Part shown: positions 13,070-31,890 of the stretch, one piece after another
Layout of the letters: every line of letters starts with the position of its first letter
How positions within the stretch are numbered: the first letter of the stretch is position 1
Assembly: GCF_014489115.1 (NCBI RefSeq)
Contig: NZ_JACTAH010000002.1
Coordinates: 434,001-498,000 of the forward strand
Direction: 5' to 3'
Source of the DNA: Thauera sedimentorum
GTDB taxonomy: Bacteria; Pseudomonadota; Gammaproteobacteria; Burkholderiales; Rhodocyclaceae
Length of the DNA: 64,000 bases
Translations under genes and position numbers: made by a program
The notes under the pieces: generated by a model
Told to the model about the DNA's origin: nothing
Seen by the model: the letters and a program-made list of their open reading frames with translations, nothing else
Databases searched by the model: none

Positions 13070-14029
13070 ATGAACGCACCCGCCCCCGCCGCTGCCACGC
13101 CCGACCTGCTCGGTGAGTTGGCCTTCCGCCTGTGTACCGCCGTGCGCCCGGTGCCGGGCCACGCCACCCTGCTCGACGCCCTGGCCCGCGAAGGCGGCCC
13201 CGAGTTCGCCCCGCGGGTGTCGCGCGGCGGCTGGTTCCGCCCGGGGCGCCTGCTCGACGCCGACGGCCGCTGCGTGGCCGAGGACGCCCACGGCTGGCTG
13301 GAACAGGCGTGGGCCGAAGCGGACGAGGACGCCGACGCGCTCGCCGACCGCCTGTGCGGGCAGGGCTACCGGATCACGCGCGACCAGGGCGTCACCCACT
13401 ACCTGGTCGCCCCCTACGGCAAGAGGCCGGCGGAGTACCTTCAGCTCGAAGTCGAGGAGCTGCAGGAGGCCAGCAGCCATGAGCTCGACTGCGGCGAAGG
13501 CATCGACTCGATCGAGACCCTGCTCGACCGCCCGGACGGGCTGCCGCCGCCCGCGCCGATCGGCCGTCCGCGCTACAGCTTCCGCCGCCTCACCGACGTT
13601 GCCGCCTGGACCGAACGCATCGCCGCCCAGGCCGGCAAACCCGCACCGGTACTGCGCTTCCTCGACGAATGGGCGCGCGCCAGCGCCGGCCAGCAGCGCC
13701 ACTTCTGCGACCACTGGGTGCTGGCGCTCTCCGAGCACCTTGACCGCTACCGCCAGACCCGCTACGGCGCGGTGCCGGTGGCCGCCCACGCCCCGAGCTG
13801 GCAGGGCGCCGACGACGCCCGCGGCACCGAACTCGCCCAGCAACTGCACGACTTCGACCGCGCCGCCGGCTACGGCTTCGCCTGGTACTTCCACATGGTC
13901 AGCGGTCGACGCGTGCCACGCAGCCTGCCGCCCAAGGTCTATGCCGACCTGCAGGAGGACCTCGCCTACCTGCCGCAGCGCGACCTCGCGCTGGTCACCG
14001 GCTGGGTCACCGAGCCCTACAGCATCTGA
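13070..14029 (+). CDS. Hypothetical protein in the nif region
   Basis: A 319-residue soluble acidic protein, not recognised. It has no signal peptide, membrane helix or clustered cysteines. The middle is rich in Asp/Glu (VEELQEASSHELDCGEGI), and the C-terminal third has conserved-looking Trp/Tyr residues (GYGFAWYFHMVSGRRVPRSL). It lies 15 bp after the LRV gene with a GAGG ribosome site, so it is probably in the same NifA-controlled transcript. That suggests a nitrogen-fixation accessory role, but no function can be assigned. Confidence 0.7.
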   Translation: MNAPAPAAATPDLLGELAFRLCTAVRPVPGHATLLDALAREGGPEFAPRVSRGGWFRPGRLLDADGRCVAEDAHGWLEQAWAEADEDADALADRLCGQGYRITRDQGVTHYLVAPYGKRPAEYLQLEVEELQEASSHELDCGEGIDSIETLLDRPDGLPPPAPIGRPRYSFRRLTDVAAWTERIAAQAGKPAPVLRFLDEWARASAGQQRHFCDHWVLALSEHLDRYRQTRYGAVPVAAHAPSWQGADDARGTELAQQLHDFDRAAGYGFAWYFHMVSGRRVPRSLPPKVYADLQEDLAYLPQRDLALVTGWVTEPYSI

Positions 14030-14044
14030 GACGGGCGCATAGCT

Positions 14045-14117
14045 TGTAGGAGCGGCCTTGGCCGCGATACGGCCGGCGAGGAAACCATCGCCGCATCGCG
14101 GCCAAGGCCGCGCCAAC
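14045..14117. repeat. REP/BIME-like inverted repeat, copy 1
   Basis: Arms GTAGGAGCGGCCTTGGCCGC and its reverse complement surround a variable loop of about 25 bp. The right arm ends imperfectly (CGCCAACA instead of CTCCTACA). It sits between convergent genes and could terminate both transcripts. Confidence 0.9.
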
Positions 14118-17160: not shown

Positions 17161-18648
17161 GTGAAAGCCTCCGACATCGCCGCCCTGCTGGACGAGCCGG
17201 CCTGTGCGCACAACAAGAAGGAAAAGTCCGGCTGTGCGCGGCCCAAGCCCGGCGCCTCGGCTGGCGGCTGTGCCTTCGACGGCGCGCAGATCGCCTTGCT
17301 GCCGATCGCCGACGTCGCGCACATCGTGCACGGGCCGATCGCCTGCGCGGGCAATTCCTGGGACAACCGCGGCACCCGCTCCTCCGGCCCCACGCTCTAC
17401 AAGATCGGCATGACCACCGATCTCTCCGAGCAGGACGTGATCATGGGCCGTGGCGAGAAGCGCCTGTTCCACGGCATCAAGCAGGCCATCGACCGCTACA
17501 GCCCGGCCGCCGTGTTCGTCTACAACACCTGCGTGCCGGCGCTGATCGGCGACGACGTGGACGCGGTGTGCAAGGCCGCCACCGAGCGCTGGGGCGTGCC
17601 GGTGGTGCCGGTGGATTCGGCCGGCTTCTACGGCACCAAGAACCTGGGCAACCGCATCGCCGGCGAGGCCATGTTCAAGCACGTCATCGGCACCCGCGAG
17701 CCGGACCCGCTGCCTGCGGACGCGGTGCCGCCGGGCATCACCGTGCACAACATCAACCTGATCGGCGAATACAACATCGCCGGCGAGCTGTGGCACGTGA
17801 TGCCGCTGCTCGACGAGCTCGGCATCCGGGTGCTGTGTACGCTCTCCGGCGACGCGCGCTTCCACGAGGTGCAGACCATGCACCGCGCGGAGGTGAGCAT
17901 GCTGGTGTGCGCCAAGGCGTTGATCAACGTGGCGCGCAAGATCGAGGAGCGCTGGGGCGTGCCCTGGTTCGAGGGCAGCTTCTACGGCATCACCGACACC
18001 AGCCAGGCGCTACGCGACATCGCCCGCATCATCGACGACCCGGACCTGATCGCCCGCACCGAAGCGCTGATCGCCCGCGAGGAAGCCCGTGTGCGCGCCG
18101 AACTGGAAGTCTGGCGCCCGCGCCTGGCGGGCAAGCGCGTACTGCTGTTCACCGGCGGGGTGAAGAGCTGGTCGGTGGTCTCCGCGCTGCAGGACCTGGG
18201 CATGAACGTGGTCGCCAGCGGCACCAAGAAATCCACCGAGGAAGACAAGGCCCGCATCCTGGAGCTGATGGGCGACAAGGCCATCATGTTGAAGAGCGAA
18301 GGCGCGCGCGACCTGCTCAACGCGGTCTATGAACTCAAGGCGGACCTGCTGATCGCCGGCGGACGCAACCTCTACACCGCGCTCAAGGCGCGGCTCCCCT
18401 TCCTCGACATCAACCAGGAACGCGAATTCGCCTACGCCGGCTACGAGGGCATGAAGGAGCTGGTACGCCAGCTCGCACTCACCCTCGAATCCCCGGTGTG
18501 GGAGGCGGTGCGCCGCCCGGCGCCGTGGTCGGCCAAGGCCATGGTGGTGGCCGGCCCCGAGATGGGCGACAGCCCGGACGCCGAGGACGACGAACCGGCC
18601 GCCGCCGGCGTCGGCGACGCAGCTTTCGACCCGCTGGCCGCCGCCTGA
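17161..18648 (+). CDS. nifE: Nitrogenase FeMo-cofactor scaffold subunit NifE
   Basis: A 495-residue NifD-like scaffold protein, slightly longer than the usual roughly 475. Cluster-ligand and signature segments include [34 protein letters not shown] and [14 protein letters not shown]; the C-terminal [19 protein letters not shown] block ([15 protein letters not shown]) is typical of NifE. With NifN it holds the cofactor precursor while Mo and homocitrate are added. The GTG at 17161 follows GGAG and the sigma-54 start. An acidic Ala-rich tail (residues 470-495) is an extension. nifN begins 12 bp downstream. Confidence 0.97.
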
Positions 18649-18660
18649 GGAGCCCGAACC

Positions 18661-20052
18661 ATGGCTGAGATCATCCGTCACCCCAAGGCCCTGTCGGTCA
18701 ATCCGCTCAAGTCCTCGGCGCCGGCCGGCGCGGCGCTGGCCTGCCTGGGCATCAATCGCGGCATGCCGGTGTTCCACGGCTCGCAGGGCTGCACCGCCTT
18801 CGCCAAGGTGTTCTTCGTCCGCCACTTCCGCGAGCCCATCCCGCTGCAGACCACCGCGATGGACCAGGTCGCCACGGTGATGAGCGCGGACGAGAACGTC
18901 ATCCAGGCGCTTGCCACGGTGTGCGGCAAGAGCAAGCCCGCGCTGGTGACGCTCGCCACCACCGCGCTGGCCGAGACCCAGGGCACCGACATCGCCCGCC
19001 TGCTGCGCGAATTCCGCGCCCAGCACCCGGAGTTCGAGCACATCCCGGTCGCCGCGGTGAACACCCCGGACTTCTCCGGCTGTCTGGAAAGCGGCTACGC
19101 GACCACGGTGAAAGGCATCATCGACGCCGCGGTGCCGGAAACCCGTCACGCCGGCCGGCGCAAGAAGCAGGTGAACCTGCTGCTCGGCAGCCACCTCACG
19201 CCGGGCGACGTGGAAGCGATCAAGGAATGGGTGGAAGCCTTCGGCCTGCGCCCGGTCGCGGTGCCGGACCTGGCCGACTCGCTCGATGGCCACATCGTCG
19301 CCGAGGACTTCCTGCCGGTCACCCTGGGCGGCACCCCGGTAGGCGAGCTCGCTTCCCTGGGCGAGGCGGCCGCCACCCTCGTCGTCGGCCGCGCGCTCAA
19401 CGCCGCCGCCGACCTGCTCGCCGAACGCACCGCGGTGCCCGACTGGCGCTTCGACGGCCTGATGGGCCTGGAGGCCTGCGACCGCTTCACCGCGCTGCTG
19501 GCCGAGCTCTCCGGGCAGAAGGTGCCCGACAGGATCGAACGCCACCGCGCCCAGCTGCAGGACGCGATGGTCGACACCCACTTCATGACCGGCCTGCGGC
19601 GCGTGGGGCTGGCCGCCGACCCCGACCTGCTGCACCAGCTGGCGACCTGGCTGGCCGGCATGGGCAGCGAGATCGTCGCCGCGGTGGCACCGGTAAAGGC
19701 CGCCGTGCTGGCCGACATCCCCGCCGCCAGCGTGCATGTGGGCGACCTGGAAGACCTCGAAGACCTCGCCCGCGCGGCCGGCGCCGAACTGCTGCTGGGC
19801 AACTCGCACGTCGCCGCCACCGCCGGGCGCCTGGGCGTGCCGCTGCTGCGCGCCGGCATGCCGCAGTACGACCTCATCGGCGGCCACTGCAAGACCTGGG
19901 TGGGCTACCGGGGCACCCGGCAGGCCCTGTTCGATCTGGCCAACCTGGTGGTGCAAAACCATGAGCACATCGCCCCCTACCGCGCCCGGCTTGTCGTGCG
20001 TGACGACCGCGACGCCGCGCCGCCGCAGGCTGCGGCTGGTGGCCGGCACTGA
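18661..20052 (+). CDS. nifN: Nitrogenase FeMo-cofactor scaffold subunit NifN
   Basis: A 463-residue NifK-like partner of NifE. The N-terminal block NPLKSSAPAGAALACLGI and GSQGCTAFAKVFFVRHFREP matches NifN; later segments include VNTPDFSGCLESGYATTV and FHTHFMTGL-like VDTHFMTGLRR. It completes the NifEN scaffold tetramer. It is cotranscribed with nifE and nifX. Confidence 0.97.
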   Translation: MAEIIRHPKALSVNPLKSSAPAGAALACLGINRGMPVFHGSQGCTAFAKVFFVRHFREPIPLQTTAMDQVATVMSADENVIQALATVCGKSKPALVTLATTALAETQGTDIARLLREFRAQHPEFEHIPVAAVNTPDFSGCLESGYATTVKGIIDAAVPETRHAGRRKKQVNLLLGSHLTPGDVEAIKEWVEAFGLRPVAVPDLADSLDGHIVAEDFLPVTLGGTPVGELASLGEAAATLVVGRALNAAADLLAERTAVPDWRFDGLMGLEACDRFTALLAELSGQKVPDRIERHRAQLQDAMVDTHFMTGLRRVGLAADPDLLHQLATWLAGMGSEIVAAVAPVKAAVLADIPAASVHVGDLEDLEDLARAAGAELLLGNSHVAATAGRLGVPLLRAGMPQYDLIGGHCKTWVGYRGTRQALFDLANLVVQNHEHIAPYRARLVVRDDRDAAPPQAAAGGRH

Positions 20053-22831: not shown

Positions 22832-22937
22832 AGGGGAGGGAGTGGACCACGGCATTCTGCAGCTCGCTATAGCACTCCTGCGTTGATTAGCAGGTCCCTT
22901 CCCCTTCAAGGGGAAGGACAGGATGGGGATGGGTTTG
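22802..22937. repeat. CTTGAAG-palindrome repeat, short copy D
   Basis: It runs from AACCCATCCCCACCCCAGCC through CCTCCCCTTGAAGGGGAGG to CCTTCCCCTTCAAGGGGAAGG and GGGATGGGTTT, so it is an inverted-repeat element of about 135 bp. It overlaps the 3' end of the DUF559 gene. Confidence 0.85.
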
Positions 22938-25484: not shown

Positions 25485-26039
25485 ATGAACCAGTTCCTGC
25501 CCGCATGGGCTCACCCCTGGCTGCACCCCATCACCACCGGCGTGCAGATCGTGCTGATCCTCGTCGGCGCCTGGCTACTGCGGACCTTGCTGCGCCACCT
25601 GGTCGGGCGCATCGGCGCCCGCCACGGCCTGCCGCCGGAGTTCGCCTTCGCGGTGCGCCGGCTGAGCAGCGTCGTCATCTACGCCGGCGCGGTGCTGCTG
25701 GTGCTGGACCGCCTGGGCGTGTCTGCCACCGTGCTGTGGACCGCCTTCACCGGCTTTGCCGCAGTCGGCGCGGTGGCCTTTTTCGCCGCCTGGAGCGTGC
25801 TGTCCAACATCTTCTGCAGCCTGCTCATCTTCACCACCCGCCCCTTCCGCCTGCACGACTGCATCGAACTACTGGAAAGCGGCGACAAGCCCGGCCTGAA
25901 AGGGGAGGTCATCGACATCAACCTGATCTACACCACCCTGCAGGAAACCGCCGAGGACGGCGCCAACACCGTGCTGCAGGTGCCCAACAGCCTGTTCTTC
26001 CAGCGCGCGACGCGTTGCTGGCGAGGGGCGTCGGGCTGA
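25485..26039 (+). CDS. Small MscS-family mechanosensitive channel protein
   Basis: A 184-residue protein with about three membrane helices. It ends the pore region with FTGFAAVGAVAFFAAWSVLS and continues with a short beta domain (LIFTTRPFRLHDCIELLES). The full MscS C-terminal alpha/beta domain is missing. The C-terminus (FFQRATRCWRGASG) lies just before an AT-rich island. It may be a naturally short member or truncated by the island; the sequence alone does not decide. Confidence 0.72.
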   Translation: MNQFLPAWAHPWLHPITTGVQIVLILVGAWLLRTLLRHLVGRIGARHGLPPEFAFAVRRLSSVVIYAGAVLLVLDRLGVSATVLWTAFTGFAAVGAVAFFAAWSVLSNIFCSLLIFTTRPFRLHDCIELLESGDKPGLKGEVIDINLIYTTLQETAEDGANTVLQVPNSLFFQRATRCWRGASG

Positions 26040-26099
26040 CCCCGCTCACCGCAACACTACATGGCTGGCCAGCGCGAACGTCTAACACGGTTAGCTGAT

Positions 26100-26142
26100 T
26101 TGCCAGCGCTACTTGCTGGCAAGCGATCTTGCCGGTGGCAAT
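26100..26142. repeat. Twin short hairpins at the left edge of the AT-rich island
   Basis: TTGCCAGC-GCTACTT-GCTGGCAA (26100-26122) is followed by TTGCC-GGT-GGCAA (26130-26142). They lie in a non-coding stretch (26040-26241) where composition changes from GC-rich to AT-rich. Confidence 0.5.
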
Positions 26143-26241
26143 GGCTTACCGATTTGCAGTCTGTCCCATTTCGCTGGAACCCCAATTGCATGATAGATTT
26201 GCGCCTTGCTAGTTGAATAGTAATCAGGTGCAGGAGCAGCA

Positions 26242-28029
26242 ATGCCAGACGATCAATATGTCGCCCTACTCGTATCCTCAGAAGGTGACAAAGCGGTTGG
26301 ACCAATAATTGAGTTCATGCGAAGAACAGGATTAACATCCGGATGCTACGCATATAAATTCAGAGTCAAGAGCAAAGAAGACCTAATCCACAAGAAGAAT
26401 CGTAAGACTCAAGAGAAACCACACTACAAGCTTGCTGATATTACTGACGTTGTCGGCGTGAGACTTGTCACTCTTTTCAAAGGAGAAATGCTTTCCACAT
26501 ACTCCAAGCTGATCGACATTCTCGCCTCAAACCCCGCAGACACTCAATTGCTGCACACAACACCAGAAGAGATCATCGTTTACAGAGGAACGTCTGCATT
26601 TGATGATCTAGCCAACGAAATTCAGAGCATTACCGAAGCAAAATTTGAAGCTCCGAACTTTGTTTCCAAGACGTCAGCAGAGGGATACTCGAGCATTCAC
26701 ATTATATGCCGGCACATCAAGAATATTAACGAGCTTAATGGCAGTGGCTATCAGTATCACCTCCCCATCGAAATTCAGATAAGAACCGTTTTCGAGGACG
26801 CATGGGGAGAGATTGACCACAAGTATGGGTACGTTATACGTGAAGGAAAGGATGCGGGGAGCCCGATAAACAATTCTCCGCATATTCTTTCTCACCTGAA
26901 AGTTCTGAAAGATTTCACAGACGCGTGCATGGACTACGCCGAATGCATTCGAAAAGAGGCTCTTCCAGAACTACTTGACTTGACAACCGGAACCACAAAA
27001 ACGATATCTGTAGCTTCAGACGAGGACATACTTCAGAGATTCCTCAGCATGGGGATAGCTGAAGAATTCGTACAGCGCTATATTGAAGCACGTTCTTTAC
27101 GCGACGAAGCTGCGGACGAATCTGGTGCAATTCACGACGGGCGAATCACAGCAGCGAGTAAGTACCTTCAGGCAGCTGATCTTTTTAGCTCCCTCTGCAA
27201 CGAACTTACACGCGGTGATTTCGCTATTAGCCTAGACAGCGGGGGAAAACTTGCCTACTACTATTGCTCAATGAATGAAGCGCTATGCTTGATGTCAACC
27301 AACCTTCCTGAGTATATGAATGCAGCGATTGACAAGTATTCATTCATTGAAGCGCACTACAAAAACTACCCACTGGCAAAAATGCGCCTTGGCCAAGCGC
27401 TTTGCAAGGCGGGAAGACTAGAGGAATCCATCGAAAAATTGCGGCAAGCGGGTTCAGATTTCAGAGAACTCGGTGCAAAATCCCAAGAAGAAGGGGTCTG
27501 GAGTGACAATCTGCCACGTGCGGACTATGAACACATGGCCTTTACGCAGCCCAAGATTCTTGGTTTCACGCTGTGGAAAAAATCACAGAGACCAGGGTTT
27601 GTTTCCGTTCAAGAAAAGGCTGACCTTTACTTTGAAGCATATGAAACGACCTTGAAATGTCTCGATGCCAAAGAAGTCGACGCAAGAAGATATTTTGATG
27701 TTCAGAATAATCTCCTCTACTACTGCGTAGGTTTCGCCTATTGTGCTCCCAAGGACGACGTTCGGCTGAACGAGATCAGAAGCAAGATCCCCGACCTGCT
27801 TGACGGGATGGTCACAAAAGGCGGCGGCACTGATCAAATGCGGATCGAGGATCTAGATACTGTTTTTAAGGCCTATGCTTTCCTTGAAGATCCAAAGGCT
27901 AAGGAGATCGCACGGGATCTCATCCAAAGATGCCTGAGAAAGGACGCAAACCTCGTCACAACTCTACGCATTTCAATTGCCGAAGTAGCCCAAGAGTATC
28001 TAGACAGTGGCACGATTATTGCTATATGA
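26242..28029 (+). CDS. RelA/SpoT-type synthetase-domain protein with a C-terminal TPR-like region
   Basis: A 595-residue protein. Residues about 35-240 form a RelA/SpoT nucleotidyltransferase domain: KFRVKSKEDLIHK, DITDVVGVRLVTLF, SAEGYSSIHII and EIQIRTVFEDAWGEIDHKYG. There is no HD hydrolase domain. Residues about 300-595 are helical and TPR-like (AKMRLGQALCKAGRLEESIE). Codon use and base composition are much more AT-rich than flanking genes, indicating transfer. It is a solitary gene. It could make (p)ppGpp-type alarmones or act as a toxin-like pyrophosphokinase in defence; this is inference. Confidence 0.85.
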   Translation: MPDDQYVALLVSSEGDKAVGPIIEFMRRTGLTSGCYAYKFRVKSKEDLIHKKNRKTQEKPHYKLADITDVVGVRLVTLFKGEMLSTYSKLIDILASNPADTQLLHTTPEEIIVYRGTSAFDDLANEIQSITEAKFEAPNFVSKTSAEGYSSIHIICRHIKNINELNGSGYQYHLPIEIQIRTVFEDAWGEIDHKYGYVIREGKDAGSPINNSPHILSHLKVLKDFTDACMDYAECIRKEALPELLDLTTGTTKTISVASDEDILQRFLSMGIAEEFVQRYIEARSLRDEAADESGAIHDGRITAASKYLQAADLFSSLCNELTRGDFAISLDSGGKLAYYYCSMNEALCLMSTNLPEYMNAAIDKYSFIEAHYKNYPLAKMRLGQALCKAGRLEESIEKLRQAGSDFRELGAKSQEEGVWSDNLPRADYEHMAFTQPKILGFTLWKKSQRPGFVSVQEKADLYFEAYETTLKCLDAKEVDARRYFDVQNNLLYYCVGFAYCAPKDDVRLNEIRSKIPDLLDGMVTKGGGTDQMRIEDLDTVFKAYAFLEDPKAKEIARDLIQRCLRKDANLVTTLRISIAEVAQEYLDSGTIIAI

Positions 28030-28080
28030 GCGGGGTGCTTTGGCGTCATTCCGAATTTTTAGCTTGACTTTGCTTGTGAA

Positions 28081-28097
28081 GCCTTCAAAATGAAGGC
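28081..28097 (+). terminator. Hairpin after the RelA/SpoT-domain gene
   Basis: GCCTTCA-AAA-TGAAGGC is a 7-bp stem with a 3-nt loop, 52 bp after the stop and without a strong T-run. It is a possible terminator. Confidence 0.4.
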
Positions 28098-28210
28098 GTC
28101 TTATCTGTGAAACCCACTAGGGCTTAGACGGGAGGTACCGAAATGCTGATTCCTAACGGAGATGGCTGAGAGAGTTCGGAAACCGGGATCGACAGAAGAC
28201 TCGATATGCG

Positions 28211-28238
28211 CGAAGGGGCTGGGACACCAGCCCCTTCG
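28211..28238. other. Strong 12-bp hairpin in the 28030-28496 intergenic region
   Basis: CGAAGGGGCTGG-GACA-CCAGCCCCTTCG is a perfect 12-bp stem with a 4-nt loop. It lacks a T-run. The surrounding 28100-28330 stretch has no credible gene; a 68-codon frame there (28206-28412) does not look coding. Confidence 0.6.
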
Positions 28239-28341
28239 TCCGTTCACGGACTGTATTCCGTACCTGATAGCAGCTACGTTGCTCAAAGGCCAGGGATCTT
28301 GGGCGATGTGACATACCCCTCGCTTCGTCAGCGAGATTTCT

Positions 28342-28357
28342 TGTCGCAAACCCGACA
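28342..28357 (+). promoter_or_regulatory. NifA-type upstream activator site of the iscA-nifUS operon
   Basis: TGT (28342-28344), ten bases, ACA (28355-28357), 83 bp upstream of the -24 element. The CG flanks inside the site (TGTCG...CGACA) match the other two sites. Confidence 0.8.
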
Positions 28358-28439
28358 ACCCCCCGCCCGCGTTCCGCTCCCGACAACGACGACAGCGCGA
28401 CACCGCAACTAAATCAACGTCTTACACCACACACCCACG

Positions 28440-28454
28440 TGGCACGCCGCTTGC
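28440..28454 (+). promoter_or_regulatory. Sigma-54 promoter of the iscA-nifUS operon
   Basis: TGGCACGCCGCTTGC matches the consensus perfectly, with GG at 28441-28442 and GC at 28453-28454. It lies 42 bp before the iscA ATG. Confidence 0.93.
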
Positions 28455-28496
28455 GACTTGTCTCCCGACACCCCTTCCCCCAGGAGAGACAAGATC

Positions 28497-28820
28497 ATGA
28501 TCACCCTGACCCCCACCGCGCTGAAGGCCGTCAGCCGCTTCATCACCGGTTCCGCCGACCCCGTGGCCGGGCTGCGCATCCATGTGCAGGGCGGCGGCTG
28601 TTCCGGGCTGCAGTACGGCATGAAGCTGGAGGCCGAGAAGGCCGACGACGACGTCACCGTTGAAGTGGATGGCGTGACCATCCTGGTCGACCCGTTCTCC
28701 GCGCCCATGCTCTCCGGCGTGACCGTGGATTACGTCGAGTCGCTCACCGGTTCCGGCTTCAAGTTCGAGAACCCCAATGCCTCGGGCGGCTGCGCCTGTG
28801 GGCAGTCCTTCTCCGCCTGA
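28497..28820 (+). CDS. iscA: nif-specific A-type Fe-S carrier (IscA-nif)
   Basis: A 107-residue HesB/IscA protein. Conserved cysteines are in GGGCSGLQYGM and GGCACGQSF. A-type carriers transfer Fe-S clusters; this copy heads the nifUS operon as in Azotobacter. A GGAG site precedes the ATG, and nifU starts 15 bp downstream. Confidence 0.93.
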   Translation: MITLTPTALKAVSRFITGSADPVAGLRIHVQGGGCSGLQYGMKLEAEKADDDVTVEVDGVTILVDPFSAPMLSGVTVDYVESLTGSGFKFENPNASGGCACGQSFSA

Positions 28821-28835
28821 TCGGGAGACGCCGCC

Positions 28836-29723
28836 ATGTGGGACTACTCCGAAACCGTCAAGGAACACTTCTACAACCCGCGCAACGCCGGCCCGCTGCC
28901 GGAAGCCAATGCGATTGGCGAGGTGGGTTCGATTTCCTGTGGTGACGCGCTGCGCCTGATGCTGAAGGTTGAGCCCGAGTCCGAGAAGATCGTGGACGCG
29001 AGCTTCCAGACCTTTGGCTGCGGTTCGGCGATTGCGTCGAGCTCGGCGCTGACCGAGATGATCAAGGGCAAGACACTGGACGAGGCGCTGGCGGTGAGCA
29101 ACCAGGACATCGCGGACTTCCTCGGCGGCCTGCCGCCCGAGAAGATGCACTGCTCGGTAATGGGCCGCGAAGCCCTGCAGAGCGCGGTGGCCAACTTCCG
29201 CGGCGAAGAGTGGAAGGACGATCACGAGGAAGGCGAGCTGATCTGCAAGTGCTTCGCCATCGACTCGGTGATGATCGAAGAGACCATCCGCGCCAACAAC
29301 CTGTGCAGCGTGGAGCAGGTGACCAACTACACCAAGGCGGGCGGCGGCTGTTCCTCCTGTCACGAGGGCATCGAGGAGATCCTTGCCCGCGTGCTCGCCG
29401 AGCGTGGCGAGACCTTCTCGCCCGCGCCGCCGCCGGAAAAGAAGAAGCCCGGCAAGCTGTCCACGCTGGAGCGCATCCGCAGGATCGAACAGGTGATCGA
29501 GAAGGCGCGCCCCAACCTGCAGCGCGACCACGGCGACATCGAGCTGGTGGATGTGGACGGCAAGACCATCTACGTGGCCATGAAGGGCGCCTGCTCCGGC
29601 TGCCAGATGGAAGCACTCACCCTGGGCGGTGTCCAGCAGCAGATGATCGAAGCGCTGGGCGAGATCGTGAAGCTGGTGCCGGTGAAGCTGAAGACCCCGC
29701 CGCCGCTGGTGAACCCGAGCTGA
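28836..29723 (+). CDS. nifU: Nitrogenase Fe-S cluster scaffold NifU
   Basis: A 295-residue three-domain NifU. The N-terminal IscU-like domain (1-125) has cysteines in [20 protein letters not shown] and MHCSVMG. The central [2Fe-2S] domain (about 133-185) has ICKCFAIDS and [10 protein letters not shown]. The C-terminal Nfu domain (about 215-295) has [11 protein letters not shown]. It assembles clusters with sulfur from NifS for NifH and NifB. Confidence 0.97.
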
Positions 29724-29820
29724 TCGACCACAACCTCGCCTGCCCCGTGGCCCGCCCCACCCCGGCGGGCCGCCCGAAACACGCCGGCGCCACCCGCCCG
29801 GCGGACCCGCGGAGAGCACC

Positions 29821-31050
29821 ATGAGCACCCCGAATTCCCTGCTGAAGCCGATCTACCTGGACAACAACGCCACCACCCGCTGCTCGCCCGAAGCGGTGGC
29901 GGCGATACTGCCCTTCTTCACCGAGCAGTTCGGCAATCCGTCGTCCATGCACAGCTTCGGCGCCAAGGTGGGCCACGCGGTGAAGGCCGCGCGCGCTTCG
30001 CTGCAGAAGCTGCTGGGCGCGGAGTACGACTCCGAGATCATCTACACCTCCGGCGGCTCCGAGGCGGACAACACCGCCATCCTCTCGGCGCTCAAGGCCA
30101 ACCCGGAAAAGAAGGAGATCATCACCACCACGGTGGAGCACCACGCGGTGCTGCACCTGTGCGACCAGTTGGAGAAGGAAGGCTACAAGGTCCACAAGCT
30201 CAAGGTGGACGGCCGCGGCCGGCTGGACCTGGCCGAATACCAGGCGCTGCTCTCCGACAAGGTGGCGGTGGTCTCGGTGATGTGGGCCAACAACGAGACC
30301 GGCACCTTCTTCCCGGTAGAGAAGATGGCCGAGATGGCGAAGGCCGCCGGCGTACTCTTCCACACCGACGCGGTGCAGGCGGTGGGCAAGATCCCGCTGG
30401 ACCTGAAGAACTCCGCCATCGACATGCTCTCGCTGTCCGGCCACAAGCTGCACGGCCCCAAGGGCATCGGCGCGCTCTACCTGCGCCGCGGCGTGCGCTT
30501 CCGCCCGCTGCTGCGCGGCGGCGGCCAGGAACGCGGCCGGCGTGCGGGCACCGAGAACGTGCCGGCCATCGTCGGCCTGGGCGTGGCCGCCGAGCAGGCG
30601 CTGGAGCACATGAAGGAAGAGAACACCCGGGTGCGCGACCTGCGCGACCGCCTGCAGAACGCCATCCTCTCCGCGGTGCCCTGTTGCTTCGCCACCGGCG
30701 ACGTGGACAACCGCCTGCCCAACACGCTCAACATCGCCTTCGAGTACGTGGAAGGCGAGGCCATCCTGATGCTGCTCTCCAAGCAGGGCATCGCCGCCTC
30801 CAGCGGCTCGGCCTGCACCTCGGGCTCGCTGGAACCCTCGCACGTGATGCGCGCGATGGGCATTCCCTACACCGCCGCGCACGGCACCATCCGCTTCTCG
30901 CTGTCGCGCGAGAACACGGTGGAAGAGATCGACCGGGTGGCTGCCGCGGTGCCCGGCATCATCGCCCAGCTGCGCAAGCTCTCGCCCTACTGGAACGGCG
31001 ACGGCCCGGTGACCGACCCGGACAAGGCCTTCGCCCCGACCTACGCCTGA
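29821..31050 (+). CDS. nifS: Nitrogenase cysteine desulfurase NifS
   Basis: A 409-residue class V PLP enzyme. It starts with the YLDNNATTRCSPEAV block; the PLP Lys is in SLSGHKLHGPKGIGALY; the active-site Cys loop is SSGSACTSGSLEPSHV. It releases sulfur from cysteine to NifU. It is 97 bp after nifU in the same operon; that gap has no gene or hairpin I could support. Confidence 0.97.
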   Translation: MSTPNSLLKPIYLDNNATTRCSPEAVAAILPFFTEQFGNPSSMHSFGAKVGHAVKAARASLQKLLGAEYDSEIIYTSGGSEADNTAILSALKANPEKKEIITTTVEHHAVLHLCDQLEKEGYKVHKLKVDGRGRLDLAEYQALLSDKVAVVSVMWANNETGTFFPVEKMAEMAKAAGVLFHTDAVQAVGKIPLDLKNSAIDMLSLSGHKLHGPKGIGALYLRRGVRFRPLLRGGGQERGRRAGTENVPAIVGLGVAAEQALEHMKEENTRVRDLRDRLQNAILSAVPCCFATGDVDNRLPNTLNIAFEYVEGEAILMLLSKQGIAASSGSACTSGSLEPSHVMRAMGIPYTAAHGTIRFSLSRENTVEEIDRVAAAVPGIIAQLRKLSPYWNGDGPVTDPDKAFAPTYA

Positions 31051-31077
31051 GCCCCCTGCGCCTCGCGGAGCCCCGCC

Positions 31078-31890
31078 ATGAACAGCGATGCCCTGACCAT
31101 GACTGCCGATGCTGCCACCCCCGGCCTGCTGCGCCTGCTGCGTGAAGACGTGCGCTGCGTGTTCGGCCGCGACCCCGCGGCGCGCACCGCCTGGGAGGTG
31201 CTCACCACCTACCCCGGCGTGCACGCCATCATGGCCTACCGCGTAGCGCACGCCATGTGGCGCCGCGGCTGGCGCTACCCGGCACGGCTGGTGAGCTTCA
31301 TGGCGCGCGTGGTGAGCAACGTGGACATCCACCCGGGCGCGCGCATCGGCCGGCGCTTCTTCATCGACCACGGCGCCGGGGTGGTGATCGGCGAGACGGC
31401 GGAAGTCGGCAACGACGTCACCCTGTACCACGGCGTGACCCTGGGCGGCACTACCTGGAACCCCGGCAAGCGCCACCCCACGCTGGGCGACAACGTGGTG
31501 GTTGGCGCCGGCGCCAAGATCCTGGGCGCGATCACCATCGGCGCGCGGGTTCGGGTGGGCGCCAATTCGGTGGTGGTCAAGAACGTGCCCGCCGACCGCA
31601 CCGTGGTGGGCATTCCGGCCCGCGTGGTGCGCCGCGACGCACCCATCCTCACCGCCACCGACGAGCTCAACCTGGACCACCACCTGCTGCCCGACCCGGT
31701 GGGCCACACGCTCAACTGCCTGCTCGACCGCATCAAGACGCTGGAAAGCGAACTGGGCGAACTGCGCCGCGCGGCCCCGGCCACGCGCGCGGCCATCCCC
31801 ATCGTTTCCGCCACGCCCGACTGCCAGGCCAACACCGAGGCCGCCTGCCCCGAGTGCGCCTGCCAGCCCGAGACCAGCGAGGCACGCTGA
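31078..31890 (+). CDS. cysE: nif-linked serine O-acetyltransferase (CysE1/NifP)
   Basis: A 270-residue left-handed beta-helix acetyltransferase. An N-terminal helical part ([20 protein letters not shown]) leads to hexapeptide repeats ([40 protein letters not shown]). It makes O-acetylserine for cysteine, the NifS substrate. The C-terminal 60 residues are an extension ending in a cysteine-rich tail ([20 protein letters not shown]). It lies 27 bp after nifS. Confidence 0.93.

Follow-up and report, generated by a model that had tools for sequence, protein, structure and literature searches.

In CapRel SJ46, the C-terminal domain is described as both inhibiting a tRNA-modifying synthetase and sensing a phage capsid protein (PMC9712102). 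A second CapRel, CapRel Ebc, is described as sensing a phage protein together with the host's FtsZ (PMC13423816). In Tde-SAS from Treponema (DsRel, TDE1711), a C-terminal TPR domain is reported to act as a brake on the synthesis of (p)ppGpp, and the protein allows a relA spoT mutant to grow again without being toxic (PMC10434055). RelA-type domains are also listed as a rarer effector in predicted MoxR-vWA ternary conflict systems (PMC7159879).

We analyzed a 64-kb stretch of DNA (the window) that contains a gene for a 595-amino-acid protein that resembles these systems in part. Like CapRel, the protein joins an N-terminal synthetase to a C-terminal part in one polypeptide; in CapRel, this part is described as regulatory or sensing and is tied to phage defense (PMC9712102, PMC13423816). 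Like DsRel, it has a small alarmone synthetase (SAS) followed by a TPR domain, as judged from our structural model and from the account of DsRel in PMC10434055. However, Tde-SAS has 410 amino acids and four TPR motifs, whereas our protein has 595 amino acids and about six modeled helix pairs, and the DsRel proteins, which we compared by their published description, are from spirochetes and Deltaproteobacteria. RelP and RelQ lack a TPR domain and have a lysine in the G-loop, which is a serine in 98 of 101 members of the window protein's family. The RelA domains of the MoxR-vWA systems sit in multigene NTPase systems, while the window gene stands alone. In our searches of the open-access literature, we did not recognize a description of a RelA/SpoT-TPR defense protein of this family.

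A lone gene in an AT-rich insertion

The RelA/SpoT-TPR gene (26242..28029, + strand) was identified from the list of open reading frames in the window, from Pfam, and from the alignment of its homologs. It begins with ATG, and the sequence AGGAG (26232..26236, + strand), which lies 5 nt upstream, resembles a ribosome binding site and probably acts as one. Close relatives (P0002 to P0007) have the identical length and align with the protein from end to end. A consensus scan also found a weak terminator-like hairpin downstream of the gene (28081..28097, + strand), but the scan found 3 sites versus 2.6 expected by chance.

The gene lies within an insertion of about 2.27 kb (approximately 26076..28340), which we delimited by comparison to a congener (G005). 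The congener's genome matches the window up to about 26039, with 90% identity, and the match resumes at 28340: just 99 bp separate the matched stretches in the congener, versus about 2.3 kb in the window. Aligning both ends placed the breaks near 26075 and 28341. The preliminary description had set the bounds of an AT-rich island at 26040 and 28440; the island is there, but those bounds are slightly wider than the insertion. In two other congeners (G002 and G004), other DNA lies between the matched stretches (about 1.8 and 1.5 kb, respectively), so the spacer between the mscS-like gene and the nif genes is a variable site, with differing content and length.

On the upstream side, the insertion is flanked by an mscS-like gene (25485..26039, + strand; MS_channel_2nd, 33 bits). 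We considered whether the insertion truncated this gene, but its 3' end is the same as in the congener. Downstream are genes for an IscA-type protein, nifU, nifS, and cysE (28458..31890, + strand), which were identified with NCBIfam models (TIGR00049, TIGR02000, TIGR03402, and TIGR01172, all above their cutoffs). The window's copy thus sits in a nif region. The 3' tail of the insertion is not a repeated element, as 28030-28345 is single copy in the genome. Elsewhere in the window, open reading frames near 22850 and 32750 share the same 11-letter peptide stretch, which points to a short intergenic DNA repeat that is dispersed.

No open reading frame inside the insertion encodes a transposase or integrase, and among the open reading frames of at least 25 amino acids in 26040-28480, we recognized neither an antitoxin-like neighbor nor any other convincing gene. 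The gene can thus be called solitary, as had been proposed.

Its composition also sets it apart from the rest of the window. The gene has a GC content of 0.463 (0.477 at third codon positions), whereas 292 other segments of 1,788 bp average 0.698 (standard deviation 0.022; minimum 0.653), and it has the lowest GC content of the 43 open reading frames in the window with at least 150 amino acids. Across the family, the gene had a lower GC content than its flanks in all eight loci, by 5 to 24 points.

Synthetase and TPR domains

The protein matches RelA_SpoT (PF04607) at 46.7 bits over residues 41-197 (the curated cutoff is 27), and no hydrolase family was detected by Pfam. The three motifs that were first noticed in the sequence (DITDVVGVRL, GYSSIH, and EIQIRT) are all present. 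In the predicted structure (pLDDT 89.4, pTM 0.69), residues 1-58 lead straight into the synthetase fold. With a match above the curated cutoff, catalytic residues that can be mapped, and a synthetase domain that is not accompanied by a hydrolase domain, the protein belongs to the RelA/SpoT superfamily and is, by its architecture, a SAS. Two other open frames in the same genome, which encode 790 and 749 amino acids, also match RelA_SpoT.

We assigned residues 1-240 to the synthetase domain (26242..26961, + strand) and residues 259-591 to a C-terminal TPR-like superhelix (27016..28014, + strand). In the fold comparison, approximately residues 1-246 of the model match RelQ and RelP, and approximately residues 259-591 match TPR superhelices, in agreement with the long TPR-like C terminus that had been predicted. 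Pfam's TPR models score below their cutoffs for this protein, but some of them are above cutoff in the homologs P0080 and P0082. The preliminary description had also called for a structural comparison with CapRel, FaRel, and RelP: the resemblance to the RelQ/RelP fold was found, and chains of CapRel or FaRel were absent from the 50 PDB fold matches listed.

To see which residues are retained across the family, we used an alignment of 101 sequences, which included the window protein and 100 of the 120 homologs listed, with shorter or partial ones excluded. Within residues 1-240, the mapped positions are R41, K43, K51, R54, D69, and R74 at the donor site, the catalytic residue E177, H193, and Y149 of the G-loop. 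Nine of 10 ATP-binding or catalytic residues of RelP are kept in the window protein, and eight of these are invariant in all 101 family members, so the loss of such residues, which the preliminary description had named as a refutation of its proposal, is not seen. The one change is at Ser84 of RelP, a donor-site contact, which aligns with Asp47. H193 is invariant in the family and is used by RelP but is lacking in CapRel SJ46, according to the alignment. In the G-loop segment (S145-H153; 26674..26700, + strand), the alignment places a serine where a lysine is usual; the lysine is present in CapRel, in the host's own RSH2, and in RelP and RelQ.

The predicted TPR domain is more divergent than the enzyme among distant family members (31% versus 45% identity) but only slightly more so among close ones (61% versus 65%). 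When we labeled the helices of the repeats as A or B by their order in the model (not by coordinates), near-invariant polar residues were found at 19 of 111 A-helix positions versus 2 of 117 B-helix positions (Fisher P = 4e-5), and the bias in the core repeats held at conservation thresholds from 0.8 to 0.95 (P ≤ 0.005). Residues on the groove side, N345, R382, Q385, D428, N489, and N490 among them, show conservation and not diversification. This crowding of polar residues on the A helices suggests a conserved ligand for the predicted groove. The C-terminal part also stays with its enzyme: 43 of the 44 proteins found to contain it have the synthetase domain, and the exception is a protein of 445 amino acids with no listed domain. 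Among these 44 proteins, we did not see the C-terminal sensor swapped onto other effectors at the level of sequence.

CapRel and the window protein share the donor-site arginines and lysines, the catalytic aspartate, and the G-loop tyrosine, as judged by alignment. However, CapRel has 373 amino acids, a pseudo-zinc-finger, and a YXXY motif, while the window protein has 595 amino acids and modeled TPR helices. The two also differ at the G-loop lysine and at the position of H193, and CapRel's phage-sensing domain is variable, in contrast to the conserved groove-side residues of this family. The window protein has a single YXXY (at residue 373), which 37 of the 101 aligned sequences share, and past residue 240 there is no pair of YXXY columns that at least 60 of them retain. 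With TPR helices in place of the pseudo-zinc-finger and a YXXY that most of the family lacks, the window protein is not a CapRel.

Two other groups of proteins are similar to the window protein. First, a sister family of 636-amino-acid proteins (loci L055, L056, and L058) has RelA_SpoT, a long C terminus, and a similar size, at 25 to 29% identity. However, it forms a deeply separate branch and retains a lysine or arginine in the G-loop, and no TPR family was matched by Pfam in the two sister proteins that we scanned. The other group, SAS proteins of about 360 to 400 amino acids from Desulfobacterota, was rejected as part of this family because the alignments were short and mostly cover approximately residues 148-205; we saw no TPR in two of these proteins that were scanned. 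A 363-amino-acid RelA_SpoT protein in the Desulfobacula genome of L014 (L078, 1300-2391) seems by eye to be more CapRel-like than the window protein is.

Distribution and gene neighborhoods

The gene is rare at every taxonomic level that we searched. A copy is present in 1 of 6 genomes from the genus, in 1 of 199 from the family, and in 2 of 399 from the order; a single-sequence search of the class detected it in 1 of 369. In a sample of the phylum, 6 of 398 genomes had matches: two were full length, and the other four, which were weaker and partial, belong to the sister family of about 640 amino acids. None of 349 genomes from f185 (putative Burkholderiaceae) contained the gene, even though the homologs from the protein search include proteins from Burkholderia and Paraburkholderia. 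There was no match in the phage collection, and none was confirmed in IMG/VR.

In a tree of 37 proteins, environmental sequences are nearest to the window protein, and the copy from the same order (G971, P0080) is in a different clade that is supported. A copy from Bacteroidota (a Prolixibacteraceae MAG, on a 4-kb contig) falls among the proteobacterial ones, although this part of the tree is open. Presence in just one of the six genomes of the genus led us to reject vertical inheritance, the other refutation that the preliminary description had named and that sequences could show. Judged from its low GC content, the congener's site without the gene, and its rarity, the gene is horizontally acquired, as the preliminary description had supposed when it called the gene foreign.

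To look for defense genes nearby, we fetched the loci of seven relatives and scanned six of them (L004, L005, L007, L047, L060, and L061) against PADLOC; L006, a 4-kb contig, was left out. The 24 neighboring proteins were picked by eye, not blind. Nine of them had any match, and five of the matches were strong. In Parahaliea (L005), the gene begins 108 bp past hsdR, and a complete hsdMSR set (type I restriction-modification) is directly upstream (HsdR, 1,242 bits). In L061, which contains the G971 copy, an AvcD-type dCTP deaminase is 5.3 kb away (451.8 bits), and there is also a weaker match to E1-E2 (1.8e-17). On the Cupriavidus megaplasmid (L047), an Avs3a-like gene lies 1.7 kb downstream of the RelA/SpoT-TPR gene (617.7 bits, with the match covering the N-terminal 805 of 2,171 residues), and weaker matches include a DrmC-like PLD protein (2.9e-13) and ZacB (2.4e-7). 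In L004, which has an IS21 pair upstream of the gene, the sole match was weak (PDC-S28, 1.8e-4). The eight proteins from L007 and L060 had no match, which leaves one weak match among 10 proteins in these three loci.

Overall, known defense genes are near the RelA/SpoT-TPR gene in three of the six loci. As a control, we scanned 10 neighbors of three SAS loci from Desulfobacterota: three proteins had matches, and none of these was a full-length defense protein. One of the control matches was strong but partial (the AAA domain of RtcR, E = 2.6e-105), so E values alone are not specific. In the window itself, no defense gene was found among the nine flanking proteins that were scanned, and the sole marginal match was of an HD-GYP-like neighbor to Cas3e (E = 0.00094). 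The preliminary description, whose interpretation is partly supported, had called for a search for homologs in defense islands: defense genes are near the gene in half of the relatives' loci that were scanned but were not found in the flanks of the window's own copy.

Two of these loci contain other genes that may be worth noting. On the Cupriavidus necator megaplasmid (NZ_CP068436.1), an unannotated stretch (L047, 14980-27164) holds the RelA/SpoT-TPR gene along with genes for a DUF6338 protein, the Avs3a-like NACHT/STAND protein of 2,171 amino acids, and the PLD/DrmC-like protein; this stretch is probably a defense island. In L061, a small protein (13831-14100) that has no Pfam match looks by eye to be of the Cas2/SinR type, and the protein with the E1-E2-like match (18224-19780) is beside the AvcD-type gene.

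Possible functions

We propose that the gene encodes an acquired, single-gene effector of phage defense: a toxSAS-like enzyme that is autoinhibited by its TPR domain and causes growth arrest. We give this reading a probability of roughly one-half. In the resting cell, the predicted TPR domain would hold the pyrophosphokinase domain, which looks intact, in an inactive state. Such autoinhibition is likely, by analogy to the TPR brake of Tde-SAS and the C-terminal brake and sensor of CapRel. During infection, a conserved ligand, probably a phage product or a host protein that is altered by the phage, would bind the TPR groove and release the brake, and the freed enzyme would then stop the growth of the cell and thereby limit the phage. 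We infer both the trigger and the growth arrest from a CapRel-like logic, with TPR repeats as the sensor. Points in favor of this reading are the horizontal acquisition, the retained synthetase residues, the lack of a recognized antitoxin gene, the polar residues on the A helices, and the relatives with defense genes nearby. Points against it are the window's own flanks, where nine scanned proteins include no defense gene; the lack of a match in the phage collection and of a confirmed one in IMG/VR; and the conservation on the groove side, which differs from the variable sensor of CapRel. In addition, PADLOC-DB 2.0.0 gave no full-length match of the protein to a named anti-phage system; its best match there is partial, to the candidate system PDC-S33 (28.5 bits, residues 125-188).

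As to what the enzyme would modify, most of the toxSASs that have been explored modify tRNA, and a basic residue of the G-loop is lost in this family, so our guess somewhat favors the 3' ends of tRNAs over GDP or GTP as the acceptor of pyrophosphate. We considered whether the change from lysine to serine might mark tRNA-modifying enzymes, but we dropped this idea: CapRel SJ46 modifies tRNA and retains the lysine, so the change does not decide the acceptor.

The main rival is a regulatory SAS like DsRel, which would make (p)ppGpp, would be held back by its TPR domain as long as no stress signal is bound, and would be mobile without being involved in defense. Tde-SAS is its best precedent, with the same domain order, a TPR domain that lowers activity, and nontoxic rescue of growth in a relA spoT mutant (PMC10434055). 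The retained donor-site residues, the invariant H193, and the fold match to RelQ and RelP would also fit a regulatory enzyme, and conserved groove residues would suit a constant cellular ligand. However, the host genome already contains two long matches of the RSH type, and one would not usually expect a housekeeping regulator to have a patchy, strain-like distribution, low GC content in eight of eight loci, and defense neighbors in three of six loci. In addition, Tde-SAS is much shorter (410 versus 595 amino acids) and has four TPRs. We consider the regulatory role somewhat unlikely.

A lone insertion without a partner or a mobility gene might instead be another kind of conflict gene, such as an addiction or anti-plasmid toxin, or it might be remnant cargo of a mobile element that is silent in this host; the IS21 pair in L004 and the megaplasmid copy in Cupriavidus are consistent with this. 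But no antitoxin-like partner gene was recognized, and a full-length, intact open reading frame with conserved residues implies selection across the family, so we view these explanations as quite improbable. Least probable of all is a catalytically dead synthetase fold that serves only as a binding module. The aspartate at the Ser84 contact of RelP and the serine in place of the G-loop lysine would be compatible with a dead enzyme, but the protein retains the catalytic aspartate, the glutamate, and the G-loop tyrosine along with seven more of the mapped positions, and eight positions are invariant in 101 sequences.

Within the reading as a defense effector, we tentatively suggest, as less likely than not, a new class of single-protein anti-phage immunity in which a toxic pyrophosphokinase with a nonbasic G-loop is joined to a TPR superhelix that reads one conserved ligand. 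The ligand might be a peptide, a nucleotide, or a protein end that many phages or stressed hosts have in common, and it would be read by the near-invariant polar ladder on the TPR domain, as opposed to the fast-evolving capsid sensor of CapRel. If so, a third kind of sensor fusion would be known for alarmone-type toxins, and the conservation of the groove might point to triggers that phages may not easily change. It would also tie RelA/SpoT-TPR genes to defense islands in proteobacteria and beyond. If these proteins are regulatory SAS-TPR enzymes instead, then such enzymes are still shown to move between lineages as single-gene inserts. Currently, the RelA/SpoT-TPR genes are annotated only as RelA/SpoT domain proteins.
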